From a bacterium HR16 (lineage in GTDB: Bacteria > Armatimonadota > HRBIN16): DNA of 36,538 nucleotides. This document shows positions 8,700 through 13,900 of this stretch, piece after piece. The stretch's first letter is position 1. The number at the start of each line of letters is the position of its first letter. The notes under the pieces were generated by a model that ran no database searches, was not told the DNA's origin, and worked only from the letters and a program-made list of their open reading frames with translations. The stretch spans positions 1 to 36,538 of the forward strand of contig BEHS01000005.1 in NCBI GenBank assembly GCA_002898895.1, written 5' to 3'. The position numbers and the translations under genes were made by a program.

Positions 8700-9869
8700 A
8701 TGACGCACCCCGAATCCCCGAACATGGTTATCGGCCTGATGTCCGGCACCAGTATGGACGGCATCGACGCCGCGCTGGTGCGTATCCATGAAGCGGGCGA
8801 GAGCCTTCAGGTGGAGACGCTCGCTTTCCGCACCACTCCCTATCCCCCTGACGTGCAGGCAGAGCTCGTGCGCACCATTCGCGGGGAGACGGGTGTCGCT
8901 GAAATCTGTCATCTGAACTTCCTACTGGGGGAGCTGTTTGCCGACGCTGCACTACAGCTGATGCAAGAAGCGGGTGTGACGCCCGAACAGCTGCTGTGCA
9001 TCGCCTCGCACGGGCAAACGGTCTGGCATCAACCCGAGCCGATAGAATGGCAAGGACGCGCCATTCGCTCCACTCTGCAGATTGGCGAACCGGCGGTGAT
9101 TGCAGAACGCACAGGCACACCCACCGTAGGCGATTTTCGGGTGGCAGATGTGGCGGCGGGCGGTCAGGGCGCGCCGTTAGTGCCTTATGTCGACTACTTG
9201 CTCTTCCGTCACCCGTCGGAGGGGCGTATTCTGCTCAACATCGGCGGTATCGCCAACCTCACCGCCATTCCCGCGAACGCCTTGCCTGAGCAGGTCATCG
9301 CCTTCGACACGGGACCGGGCAACGCCCTCATCAACGTGGCGATGGAGATTGCCAGCGGAGGCAAGTACCGCTACGACCCTGAAGGCTCCTTCGCCCAGCG
9401 ACACCCCGTGCGCGAGGAGTGGCTGAATGAACTGCTACAACACCCTTACTTCGCGCAACCTCCGCCCAAGTCCACCGGGCGCGAAACTTTCGGTGAGGCG
9501 ATGGTACGCAAGCTGTTGCGCCGTTATAAGCTCTCTGACGCGGAACTGCTCGTGCCTGCGCTGACCGAGCTCACCGCCCGCACCATCGCAGACGGCATCC
9601 GTCGCTTCGTGCTCTCCAGAATGCGGGCGGCAAGGCTTATTGTGTCGGGAGGTGGTGTGCATAACCGCACGCTCATGAAGCGACTGCGGGAACTGCTCCC
9701 CGAACTGCAAGTGGAGACCAGCGACCGCTACGGCATTCACCCCGATGCGAAAGAGGCTGTAGCCTTTGCAGTGCTGGGCTACCAGCGGATACGGGGACGA
9801 ACTAATAATCTGCCATCCGCAACAGGTGCACGACGGGCGGTGGTGATGGGAAAATTGTGTCTGCCGTAG
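8700..9869 (+). CDS. anmK: Anhydro-N-acetylmuramic acid kinase
   Basis: MVIGLMSGTSMDGIDAALVRI; SHGQTVWHQP; GEPAVIAERTGTPTVGDFRVADVAAGGQGAPLVPYVDYLLF; NIGGIANLTAI; FDTGPGNALIN. Confidence 0.96.
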   Translation: MTHPESPNMVIGLMSGTSMDGIDAALVRIHEAGESLQVETLAFRTTPYPPDVQAELVRTIRGETGVAEICHLNFLLGELFADAALQLMQEAGVTPEQLLCIASHGQTVWHQPEPIEWQGRAIRSTLQIGEPAVIAERTGTPTVGDFRVADVAAGGQGAPLVPYVDYLLFRHPSEGRILLNIGGIANLTAIPANALPEQVIAFDTGPGNALINVAMEIASGGKYRYDPEGSFAQRHPVREEWLNELLQHPYFAQPPPKSTGRETFGEAMVRKLLRRYKLSDAELLVPALTELTARTIADGIRRFVLSRMRAARLIVSGGGVHNRTLMKRLRELLPELQVETSDRYGIHPDAKEAVAFAVLGYQRIRGRTNNLPSATGARRAVVMGKLCLP

Positions 9870-10733
9870 CTATCCCTTTACAGCACCCAATTGAATCCCT
9901 CGCACCAGGAACCTCTGCGACACCACGAACAGGATAACCAGTGGGATGATATTCATTACGCTGGCGGCCATGATGAGGTTGGTCTGCCTGCCGTAGTTGG
10001 TGTCGAAATAGAGCATCCCGATGGGCAGAGTGCGCAGGTGTTCGCTTTTGATTAAGATGAGGGGCCAGAAGAAAGAGCCGTAGTTGCCCATAAAGGTAAA
10101 TATCGCCAGCGTAATCAGCCCCGCACGCGACAGGGGCATGATGATGTCCCAGAAGATTTGCCAGTGCGTCGCGCCGTCTATCTTCGCCGCTTCGTTCAGC
10201 GAGGGCGGGATGGTGAGCATGAACTGCCTCAGCAGGAACGTGCCGAACGCGCTGAACGCCGCCGGCACAATCAGCCCGATGTACGAGTCCAGCAGGTGCA
10301 GCCACACCATCAGCGTATAGTTGGGAATCATAGTCACCACGCCCGGAATCATCAGCGTGGCGAGGTAAAGGCGGAACACGGTGTCGCGCCCCTTCCATTG
10401 CAGGCGGGCGAAGGCGTATGCCGCCATCGCGCTGGTGAGGCACTGCAGGAAGGTCACCCACGCGGCGATGAACACGCTGTTGAAGTAGTAGCGGGCGAAG
10501 GGGATTTGCTCGAACACCTTCGCGTAGTTCTCGGGATGCCATACGCTGGGCAAGGGGTTAATCTGCTCGACCTCTTCCAGCGGTTTGAAGCTTGCAAGCA
10601 CCATCCACACAAACGGCGCGAGGGTGGTCAGCGCGATGAGCGTTAGCACCAGGTGGCTGAGCACCACCTTGCCCACACGATTCCACCAGACGGCGATTGC
10701 TGGAGGTTTTGGGGTGGTGGTTCCTTCTACCAT
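9870..10733 (-). CDS. Carbohydrate ABC transporter permease (MalG/CUT1-type)
   Basis: Multi-TM protein with the inner-membrane EAA motif LNEAAKIDGATHWQIFWDIIMPLSRAGLITLAIFTFMGNYGSFFWPLI. Confidence 0.92.
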   Translation of the reverse strand: MVEGTTTPKPPAIAVWWNRVGKVVLSHLVLTLIALTTLAPFVWMVLASFKPLEEVEQINPLPSVWHPENYAKVFEQIPFARYYFNSVFIAAWVTFLQCLTSAMAAYAFARLQWKGRDTVFRLYLATLMIPGVVTMIPNYTLMVWLHLLDSYIGLIVPAAFSAFGTFLLRQFMLTIPPSLNEAAKIDGATHWQIFWDIIMPLSRAGLITLAIFTFMGNYGSFFWPLILIKSEHLRTLPIGMLYFDTNYGRQTNLIMAASVMNIIPLVILFVVSQRFLVRGIQLGAVKG

Positions 10734-11095
10734 TGGATGCTAGCCTCAACCAGAGAACGAGCGTAACCTAATGCGTCGTTCGCGAGAACAGGGAGATTGG
10801 TCACGTCGTTATCATAATCACACTGATTGCGCCATTGGCGAAGCCTGCTAAGCCAGATGGCAGCTGTGGAATGACCATGCTGGCGCAGGTATTCTACAAC
10901 TGCAGCATGGTCTGAAGCGGTTCCTGTTCGTGTAAAATCTGCTCCCCTGGCAAGTTGGTCACGAATGGTGCAAAAAACGGCATAATAGGCTCGGCTAACC
11001 GCTGCACGCTGAAGACACTCGCGAGATACTCGCGAATCCCTTTCTTCCATCAGGTACTCTGCCAGTGTTAGAAACTCTTTCCAGTCAAACGCCAT
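10727..11095 (-). CDS. HEPN-domain protein (second gene of a 127-aa/HEPN module)
   Basis: LQRAAVSRAYYAVFCTIRDQLARG...DHAAVVEYLRQHG..AAIWLSRLRQWRNQCDYDND: SRAYYAVF helix and a terminal R-N-x-x-D-Y motif as in PF05168-like HEPN proteins. Stop overlaps the downstream permease start (ATGGTAG). Confidence 0.8.
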   Translation of the reverse strand: MAFDWKEFLTLAEYLMEERDSRVSRECLQRAAVSRAYYAVFCTIRDQLARGADFTRTGTASDHAAVVEYLRQHGHSTAAIWLSRLRQWRNQCDYDNDVTNLPVLANDALGYARSLVEASIQW

Positions 11096-11098
11096 GCC

Positions 11099-11482
11099 TT
11101 ACTCCGGTGTCTTGAAGTCGGTCGTGAGCAAGAACCATCCATTCGCTCCTTGTAGTAGAGGTACATATTGAGTGTCTATTTCGTCGAGGCTTTGCATTAG
11201 TTCCGGACCGTACTCCCAAAGACGGATATACAGGGTAAGGTAGCTGTGCTCGAACTCCATATCCTCATACACGGTAAGGACGAGCTGTGCCTCTGGAAAG
11301 CGTTTTCGGGTTTCCTCCGCCGCTTTGAGTAAAGCAGCGACCACATCGGGGTGCTGTTCAAGATAACCTACCACCCCTTCCGTGTTCGTGACCGTAACGC
11401 CCCACGCATCAAGTTGATGCAAAGTCTCCCTAATGTATGCAGGGGGTATTGCCTCTTGCAAAACCGTGTGTTGTGCTCTCAT
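11099..11482 (-). CDS. Uncharacterised 127-aa protein (first gene of the HEPN module)
   Basis: Complete ORF MRAQHTVLQEAIPPAYIRETLHQLDAWGVTVTNTEGVVGYLEQHPDVVAALLKAAEETRKRFPEAQLVLTVYEDMEFEHSYLTLYIRLWEYGPELMQSLDEIDTQYVPLLQGANGWFLLTTDFKTPE; AGGAGG upstream; 3-nt gap to the HEPN gene. Confidence 0.75.
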   Translation of the reverse strand: MRAQHTVLQEAIPPAYIRETLHQLDAWGVTVTNTEGVVGYLEQHPDVVAALLKAAEETRKRFPEAQLVLTVYEDMEFEHSYLTLYIRLWEYGPELMQSLDEIDTQYVPLLQGANGWFLLTTDFKTPE

Positions 11483-11497
11483 ACGTTATCCTCCTGT

Positions 11498-11536
11498 CCT
11501 CAGGTTCACTATATCGTGAAACCTGAGGTCTGTCAA
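11498..11536 (-). promoter_or_regulatory. sigma70-type promoter TTGACA-N17-TATAGT overlapped by a 31-bp inverted repeat (operator candidate)
   Basis: Minus strand: TTGACA (11531-11536), 17 nt, TATAGT (11508-11513). Inverted repeat CCTCAGGTTTCAC..GTGAACCTGAGG at 11498-11528 covers the spacer and -10. Start codon of the 127-aa ORF at 11482. Confidence 0.75.
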
Positions 11537-11565
11537 TCCTGTTCCACGTGGGGTGGAGTGCCTCC

Positions 11566-12564
11566 TCAATAGCTGACCTCTTTCGCGCCGAACTTCCAGT
11601 TGACCAGCGTCACCACGAAGATAATGGCGAACAGTATCCACGAAATCGCCGAAGCGTAGCCAATCTGGAACTCCTCGAACGCCTTGGTGTAGATATAATA
11701 CGTCAACGTGGTGGTTGTGCCTGCGGGTCCGCCGGCGGTCATCACCCGCGCCTGCTCGAAACCGCCCTGCAGTCCGCCGATGAAGCTCATCACCACGATG
11801 AAGAAGGTAGTTGGCGCGAGCTGGGGCCAGGTGACGTTGCGGAACACCGACCACTTGCCTGCACCGTCCAGCTGCGCGGCTTCTATCAGCTCCTGTGGCA
11901 CGTTGGTCAGCGCGGCAAGGTAGAGTAGCATATTGTTGCCGCCGATGGCAATCCAGATACCCATGATGATAAGCGCGTCGCGTGCGCCCAGTCCGAACTG
12001 CTTCGCGGTCACACGCACCTGTTCCACGTCCAGCCCCAGCAGGTTCGCGGTGGAGAGTAACCACTGGGGCGCTTTCACATCCAGCCCCAGTGCCTGGCTC
12101 ACCGCGTTAATCGCCGCGTTGATGGGACCGAAATCGGGATTGTACAGCGCCTTCCAGAGTATCATCAGCGCAACGCCGCTGGTGATGCTGGGCAGGTAGA
12201 AGAGTGTTCGGTATAGCACGATGCCCCGCAGCTTCTGGCTGAGCAGTATCGCCAGCGCAAGCGACCCGGCGATGGCAACGGGCATTCCCAGCATCAGGTA
12301 GAGCGTGTTGATGAAGTACAGCCAGAACTGCTGGTCATGCATCAGCTCGATGTAGTTTTGCACGCCAATCCACTGGAAGGGGATGGTGCGCTGCAGGTTC
12401 CAGTTACTGAAGCTGACCACGAGCGAAAACAGCACCGGCCCCGCGGTGAACACCGCGAAGCCGAGAAAATTGGGCAGCAGGAACAACCATGCTACCCATC
12501 TTTCGTCACGAGCGTGAAAACCTCTTCGCATCGACTGGGCTCCAGTTGCCATCGCCCGGTACAC
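11566..12564 (-). CDS. Carbohydrate ABC transporter permease (MalF/CUT1-type)
   Basis: VAWLFLLPNFLGFAVFTAGPVLFSLVVSFSNWNLQ..IGVQNYIELM; EAA loop ELIEAAQLDGAGKWSVFRNVTWPQLAPTTFFIVVMSFIGGLQ. Start could be internal (MRRGFHARDERW). Confidence 0.92.
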   Translation of the reverse strand: MYRAMATGAQSMRRGFHARDERWVAWLFLLPNFLGFAVFTAGPVLFSLVVSFSNWNLQRTIPFQWIGVQNYIELMHDQQFWLYFINTLYLMLGMPVAIAGSLALAILLSQKLRGIVLYRTLFYLPSITSGVALMILWKALYNPDFGPINAAINAVSQALGLDVKAPQWLLSTANLLGLDVEQVRVTAKQFGLGARDALIIMGIWIAIGGNNMLLYLAALTNVPQELIEAAQLDGAGKWSVFRNVTWPQLAPTTFFIVVMSFIGGLQGGFEQARVMTAGGPAGTTTTLTYYIYTKAFEEFQIGYASAISWILFAIIFVVTLVNWKFGAKEVSY

Positions 12565-12592
12565 TGCCCAACGCGGTAATTGCCGCGGTAAT

Positions 12593-12620
12593 GCAGGGAC
12601 GAATGATTATTCGCCCCTAC
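12593..12620. repeat. 28-bp dispersed palindrome, copy P1 (gcagggacgaatgattattcgcccctac)
   Basis: Arms gcagggacgaat/attcgcccctac with 4-nt loop; related copies at 17765-17792, 25278-25305 and 25320-25347. Confidence 0.85.
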
Positions 12621-13900
12621 TTCACCACCGTTACCACAGGCACGGTGCACACATGGTACTCCGTACCGTTCACACTGCCCTGCGCATCGGCGAACAGGGC
12701 GAAGGCGACGGCATCGGTCGGCAAAGCGATTTCGGCAGTGTATTTGCCGTTGCCTGCGGGCTTGGCGTCCTGCGCCGTCCATTTCGAACTGCGCAGGTCT
12801 TTCGTGCTGGATTGCGCCGTCCAGATTTGCACGCCTTCCACCTTGCCCCTGGTGGTCACGGTCACCAGCAGTTTATTGCCCTGTCGCTTCACGTCCGCCT
12901 GGATTTGCGCCAGCGGCTGTTTGGACGCCACCGCCAGGTAGAACGCGGTGAGGTTGTTCACCACACGCGGCAAGCCCTCTTGCAGGCTGTGTCCGGCATT
13001 GGGCACGTACATCAGATATTTCTCGCCCGGCAGGTCGTTAAAGTAGAACTGCGCGGCGTCTATCACCCAGTAGCGGTCGTTCGCACCGTTGATAATCATC
13101 TTGGGCATCTTGAACCGTTCGCGGTAGAAATAGGGGTCTACCGTTGTGGTCAACACCTGCCCTTCGGCGGTGGAGAGCATTTCGGTTAATCCCTTGCTGG
13201 AGTAGTCGGCGATCATCTCGCTATACTTGCCCCAGGTGGCTACCTGATGGGGCAGTTGCTTTGGGAAGTTCAGGATATCGTATACCAGCGGGGCGATGGC
13301 GCGCACGCGCTTATCTACCGCCGCCGTAAGCCATGTCGTCCATCCGCGCTTGGAGCCGCCGGTGACCATAAACTCCTTCACGTCGATACCCCATTGCTTT
13401 TTAGCGATTTCCTGCACGGCGGTCATGGCGCGTACCGCGCTTTTGGTCATCGGCAACAGGGCGGGCCAGGTCTTATCGCCCGTTTTGGCGAACTCCACGA
13501 AGGTGTACGAGATAAGCCCGTCTTCGCTCAGACCGCCGAACAGGGGCTGATTGGGCACATCGTTGAGGATAACGCACAGTGCCCCCACCTTGTTGGCTAC
13601 CTGCCCGAACGCCGCCAGCTCTGCCATCCCGCTACTGCCGGTGATGTAGAGCACAGCAAACTCAGGGTTTTTTAACTGCGCCGGCTTCAGGATATACACG
13701 CGGTGCTTCCATACGATGTCGCGCCATTTTTGCGAGGTGAGACTGACCTCCAGCGCGGTGATGCCGGACATTTCGCGGGTGTTCACAATTTGCCAGCCGT
13801 AGGTGTTATCCTCGGCAGCCACGTAGTCGTCCAGCGGCGTCGCCGACGCCATCCACGTTGTCAGTGCGACCAGCAGAGATACGCATAACCAGCGGAACAT
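12617..13900 (-). CDS. PhoPQ-activated pathogenicity-related protein (PqaA-like, alpha/beta hydrolase fold), secreted
   Basis: Signal peptide MFRWLCVSLLVALTTWMASA; TPLDDYVAAEDNTYGWQIV; TAVQEIAKKQWGIDVKEFMVTGGSKRGWTTWLTAAVDKRVRAIAPLVYDILN; INGANDRYWVIDAAQFYFNDLPGEKYLMYVPNAGHSL. Confidence 0.88.
   Translation of the reverse strand: MFRWLCVSLLVALTTWMASATPLDDYVAAEDNTYGWQIVNTREMSGITALEVSLTSQKWRDIVWKHRVYILKPAQLKNPEFAVLYITGSSGMAELAAFGQVANKVGALCVILNDVPNQPLFGGLSEDGLISYTFVEFAKTGDKTWPALLPMTKSAVRAMTAVQEIAKKQWGIDVKEFMVTGGSKRGWTTWLTAAVDKRVRAIAPLVYDILNFPKQLPHQVATWGKYSEMIADYSSKGLTEMLSTAEGQVLTTTVDPYFYRERFKMPKMIINGANDRYWVIDAAQFYFNDLPGEKYLMYVPNAGHSLQEGLPRVVNNLTAFYLAVASKQPLAQIQADVKRQGNKLLVTVTTRGKVEGVQIWTAQSSTKDLRSSKWTAQDAKPAGNGKYTAEIALPTDAVAFALFADAQGSVNGTEYHVCTVPVVTVVK

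Follow-up and report, generated by a model that had tools for sequence, protein, structure and literature searches.

A HEPN-domain gene and an uncharacterised partner between two sugar ABC permease genes: a probable toxin-antitoxin or anti-phage pair

The malF-malG junction and its inserted pair

The window, a stretch of 36,538 nucleotides from bacterium HR16 (contig BEHS01000005.1), carries on its minus strand a sugar ABC-transporter operon in which two permease genes are separated by two other genes. In order, these are a MalF-type ABC permease gene (11566-12564; PF00528, E 3.2e-9), a 127-amino-acid open reading frame of an uncharacterised family at 11099-11482, which we call mid, a gene at 10727-11095 for a HEPN-domain protein of 122 amino acids that is a predicted RNase effector, and a MalG-type ABC permease gene (9870-10733; PF00528, E 2.7e-19). 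The original prediction had placed the four genes in this way between 9870 and 12564, and both the sequence and the PF00528 matches of the two permeases agree with it. The same is true of the proposed overlap ATGGTAG (10727-10733, read on the minus strand from 10733 to 10727), in which the final Trp codon and stop of the HEPN gene run into the start of malG. The window malF aligns with its congeners only from about residue 8-16, so its real start is probably later than annotated; orthologues are present in all nine congeners, with 91-98% identity over full-length matches.

A sigma-70 promoter, TTGACA-N17-TATAGT, lies at 11508-11536 on the minus strand and agrees with the consensus at 11 of 12 positions. 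It is the sole sigma-70 match within 9800-12700, a region in which 1.6 matches per shuffle are expected by chance, and its hexamers are identical to the letter, with the same spacing, in the sister species G184. Over its -10 element extends an imperfect palindrome, CCTCAGGTTTCAC-gatata-GTGAACCTGAGG (11498-11528, minus strand), a possible operator whose core is kept in G184 and whose score is weak when taken alone, being reached by 15 of 300 shuffles. No enrichment of palindromes was found upstream of 95 related modules, where about 3% beat shuffles at p<0.05; a family-wide operator was rejected on these figures, and classical autoregulation across the family is therefore unsupported. Of the proposed operator-promoter, the promoter is conserved in G184, whereas the operator does not extend to the family.

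Judged from related genomes, the pair is an insertion into the ABC operon, as had been proposed. Direct malF-malG junctions occur in two congeners, with spacings of 11 bp in G180 and 7 bp in G179. The sister species G184 has the module at the same site with an internal deletion that takes the first half of the HEPN gene and leaves mid open, and G187 retains two scars, one made up of the mid end and the HEPN start, the other of the final HEPN codons, which are joined to malG. With G183, where about 22 bp at the junction match the G184 HEPN gene at its end, the scar-bearing congeners number one or two. Misassembly was rejected, since a second genome (G184) has the same insertion and other congeners have remnants there.

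Other genes occupy the junction as well. A TPR gene of about 330 codons, found nowhere else in the genus, lies there in G187 (L046:1687-2691), G183 (L048:1565-2548) and G181 (L049:1962-2969), and G186 has a truncated MNT-like open reading frame (GS...SDIDIAV; L052:2082-2430, reverse complement) with a weak match to the MntA model (E 0.013). Since the congeners show the module, its remnants, the TPR gene, the MNT-like frame or a direct junction, genes have repeatedly been gained and lost here, and the junction offers a clean natural example of the gain and decay of a module at one site. A further HEPN copy in G183 (L018:1501-1854) has an internal TAA, and no mid was detected upstream of it. Between the window and G184, mid has a dN of 0.08 and a dS of 0.33 (ratio 0.25), compared with ratios of about 0.03 for malF and 0.02 for malG; by this measure mid is constrained, though more loosely than the permeases.

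The malG gene of G179, which is without the module, also begins with ATGGTAG, and that of G186 begins with ATGGTGG. Because these module-less genes already start in this way, the HEPN gene seems to read into malG, its last codons, TGG-TAG, being read out of malG's own ATGGTAG, and the simplest reading is that the 3' end of the HEPN gene was joined onto malG. The module promoter is positioned so as to be able to drive malG, and it is plausible that malG is translated partly by coupling to HEPN. The suggestion that the pair has captured expression of a permease subunit is thus plausible in the anatomical sense; since the genus is shedding the module at this junction, the coupling looks incidental.

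Distribution of the mid-HEPN pair

Relatives of the HEPN protein were collected by an alignment scan of one genome per species, which gave 262 relatives, the best 80 of which were kept. Together with loci from a search of the phylum, a scan of viral contigs and plasmids, as well as a few that came through a search with mid and are biased in that respect, they make up 101 HEPN loci. mid lies directly upstream of HEPN in 94 of the 101, and two of the remaining seven loci sit at contig edges. From the mid stop to where the HEPN domain match begins, the median gap is 0 nt. These 94 loci have the small, tightly linked, partner-first two-gene operon of toxin-antitoxin modules in general, and to have the partner in front is usual for antitoxin-toxin operons (PMC3710099). 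The two proteins also diverge together: in a mirror-tree comparison their distances correlate with r=0.73, a value that includes shared host ancestry, and 1000 shuffles gave no more than 0.085. In 43 of the 94 modules a third gene, TIGR04255, stands directly upstream of mid.

The pair is sporadic within the phylum, where 291 genomes include 11 that have mid and 20 that have HEPN. Solo HEPN and solo mid genes are both uncommon, a few loci (L004 and L008) having mid without any HEPN. Hosts, going by their record titles, include Planctomycetota, Acidobacteriota, Chloroflexota, cyanobacteria, Thermotogales, methanogens, Archaeoglobales and Heimdallarchaeota, and plasmids of Thermus and Gloeothece carry the module beside VapBC or near a replication gene. 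On the Thermus brockianus plasmid pTB1 (L054), TIGR04255-mid-HEPN adjoins VapBC close to cas6. Tandem arrays, either mid-HEPN-mid-HEPN or mid-mid-HEPN, occur in cyanobacteria and one Chloroflexi record (L097, L100, L109). Viral contigs yielded four relatives in the HEPN scan, and two of these have mid; a single mid protein, used to scan viral sequences, returned no relative, the conserved blocks of mid by itself being too short for an alignment scan.

The immediate neighbours comprise 170 Pfam families over 101 proteins scanned, with no constant partner. They include three restriction-modification-type DNA methylases, two AbiLi and two PD-T4-6 proteins, a minority of defence genes that was counted without a random-locus control and is suggestive only. 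The relatives have no consistent sugar-operon context and are not, as a rule, next to permeases. The prediction of an autonomous pair, found together at nearly all loci and also away from ABC operons, is supported, and the neighbourhoods of the 101 loci exclude both that homologues never form a pair and that they always lie between these permeases. On its genomic distribution, mid-HEPN is an autonomous, mobile and widely spread module.

These neighbourhoods also bear on whether the module serves the transporter, as a working component or a coupling element, and is kept since malG expression depends on it. Such a role could draw on the ATGGTAG overlap and on a promoter able to drive malG, but malF and malG adjoin directly in two congeners, other congeners have a broken module or something else in its place, and the pair's relatives lie mostly away from permeases; we consider it highly unlikely. 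A transporter component was rejected on the intact junctions of G179 and G180 and the heterogeneous contexts elsewhere. The feature is real and is not a transporter part.

The HEPN protein, mid and TIGR04255

The HEPN protein of the window is itself unmatched in Pfam and NCBIfam, and its identity follows from the PF05168 matches of its family (44 of 80 members, the window protein not among them), from profile matches to solved HEPN proteins and from its predicted fold. The AF2 model (pLDDT 95.7) has the four-helix HEPN fold, and its best PDB matches in Foldseek are AF0298 and HepT/MntA toxin structures, at a probability of 1.00 with E-values of only 0.0016-0.5. The structure search had been proposed for both proteins; mid has no fold match in the PDB.

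The protein carries R89-N90-Q91-C92-D93-Y94 and lacks Rx4-6H, with no histidine at that place, and on this ground it had been suggested to be non-nucleolytic. Across the 80 aligned members, R30, R35, Y37, R89 and Y94 are invariant and H63 and D93 are kept in 79, which leaves H63 and R89 with Y37/Y38 as a putative site. In a profile alignment to the HEPN protein of retron-Kva2, R39-YYY-42 lies opposite R35-A-Y37-Y38, and H64 opposite H63; R122 is paired with R89 only in a weak second alignment segment. The upstream His and the Arg with YY that characterise the AF0298/type IX retron HEPN group are present, the Arg subject to the weakness of that segment. The retron-Kva2 HEPN has no canonical motif, H64 and R122 are used at its dimer interface, and H64A, R122A or Y40-42A abolish phage defence (PMC13405049, a July 2026 preprint); the same kind of alternative site was proposed for AF0298 in a 2013 survey of HEPN proteins (PMC3710099). 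Because the conserved site aligns with residues of retron-Kva2 that are essential for defence, the non-nucleolytic reading is not the best default and is unlikely, and the window protein is predicted, from its modelled fold and its residues, to be an active RNase.

A catalytically dead HEPN would make the pair an RNA-binding regulator of the sugar operon, comparable to inactive MtlR-family HEPN proteins, for which repression of the mannitol operon has been proposed (PMC3710099). The absence of Rx4-6H and the location in a sugar-transport operon would suit such a regulator, but residues resembling an active site are invariant across distant phyla, the relatives show no consistent sugar-operon context and congeners run the same malF-malG pair without the module, all of which makes this quite improbable.

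The AF2 model of mid (pLDDT 94.2) has the order H-E-H-H-E-E-H-E, and the conserved features of the family are a hydrophobic core and a D-P-E turn, D74-x-E76, which is D-M-E in the window. The window mid is unmatched in NCBIfam; among 83 mid members each Pfam match is confined to a single protein, and PADLOC gave single weak matches only. The best hit in the fold search of the PDB had an E-value of 0.06 and a TM-score of 0.32, which is no match, and one unnamed viral protein matches mid at E 1.5e-5. A divergent MNT was considered and rejected, there being no Pfam nucleotidyltransferase in the 83 members and no such fold match. By its position in the operon, mid would be the controlling partner of HEPN.

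TIGR04255 (profile match E 1e-46 in one example locus) is absent from the window and from its genome. Where it accompanies mid-HEPN it is well conserved (alignment A10), and it also occurs in many loci without the pair. In six of these (L153, L154, L158, L160, L170 and L173) it is followed by other small genes that are mutually similar, of an LPVPDA...LLYVWDK...HHFE type or a WNGYxxxxP type, which suggests that its partners are exchangeable. The mid proteins of L009, L004 and L008 begin with the N-terminal signature of TIGR04255, for example MARHYKNPPVVEA, a pattern that an in-frame deletion of TIGR04255, with its start left joined to mid, would give. PADLOC and the PDB gave nothing useful for TIGR04255, and a full-text literature search for it found no paper.

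Interpretation and comparison with known systems

We favour a self-contained HEPN RNase effector with an undescribed controlling partner, similar in logic to a toxin-antitoxin pair or an abortive defence system and lodged by chance in an ABC operon, a reading to which we give a probability of about 60%. The pair is probably an RNA-cutting toxin and the protein that controls it, and its most likely role is in toxin-antitoxin action or anti-phage defence, not in transport. The module inserted at a variable site inside the operon, probably by horizontal transfer. The downstream gene would encode a HEPN ribonuclease, dimeric and of the type seen in AF0298 and type IX retrons, with the alternative H63 and R89 site, which would cut RNA (tRNA, by analogy) and thereby arrest the cell. 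mid, as a dedicated partner, would keep HEPN inactive or gate it, and TIGR04255, the third protein in about half of the related loci, probably adds sensing; the window copy is the two-gene form, which would be transcribed from its own promoter. Such a logic fits because the partner comes first, the linkage is tight, the two proteins diverge together and HEPN was lost before mid in G184.

mid could act on HEPN in a different way. HEPN may be a real RNase that mid serves as an activator, or as a subunit for target recognition or assembly, and not as an antitoxin; together they would form an anti-phage effector with TIGR04255 as its sensor. Type IX retrons keep a related HEPN protein in a multi-subunit complex from which it is released on infection (PMC13405049), and the conservation of TIGR04255 with the pair and the scarcity of either gene alone would agree with this. 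However, a mid that stays open after the HEPN gene is broken, as in G184, and the few mids without any HEPN (L004 and L008) suit an antitoxin better than an activator, and we consider a subunit role rather unlikely.

Many defence systems act through a HEPN RNase, and what restrains each such enzyme is a common unknown. Here, a HEPN type with an alternative site, just tested in a retron, is tied to a partner family lacking a name, a domain model and a known fold, and three orphan families (mid, HEPN and, about half of the time, TIGR04255) become one three-gene system that can be tested directly. A broader reading, which we hold tentatively and at slightly less than even odds, is that mid is a new HEPN-controlling family with a fold unseen in the PDB which, joined by a HEPN RNase like that of type IX retrons and often also by a TIGR04255 sensor, constitutes an undescribed defence or toxin-antitoxin system across bacteria and archaea, dropped here into an ABC operon so that malG was made part of its transcription unit.

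The module resembles several known systems in part. First, its HEPN protein is similar to the type IX retron effector (retron-Kva2, PDB 36ht; PADLOC HEPN_IX) at a profile E-value of 6e-4, HEPN_IX being matched by 34 of 80 members, and the two have in common the non-canonical H, R and YY residues without Rx4-6H. Unlike a type IX retron, the module is without a reverse transcriptase, ncRNA and winged-helix gene, and its partner is the unrelated mid, with or without TIGR04255; in the window it is flanked by malF and malG, and no reverse transcriptase is found among the 25 commonest neighbour families of its relatives. Second, AF0298/UPF0332 (HEPN-T; PDB 2hsb) is the best fold match, with a probability of 1.00 and a TM-score of 0.62, and likewise has a conserved upstream H and no H in Rx4-6H, whereas a mid partner is nearly obligatory in the family of the window protein. 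Third, HepT-MntA (type VII toxin-antitoxin) has the same two-gene, partner-first order, a conserved Tyr near the motif and, in the HepT structures 7bxo and 5yep, the same HEPN fold, but mid is not recognised as a nucleotidyltransferase and the canonical Rx4H is replaced. Finally, TIGR04255 (NCBIfam sporadTIGR04255) supplies a third gene to the 43 modules mentioned above, is missing here and has other downstream genes elsewhere. The mid partner family is the uncharacterised half of the pair, and the HEPN effector is of a known kind.
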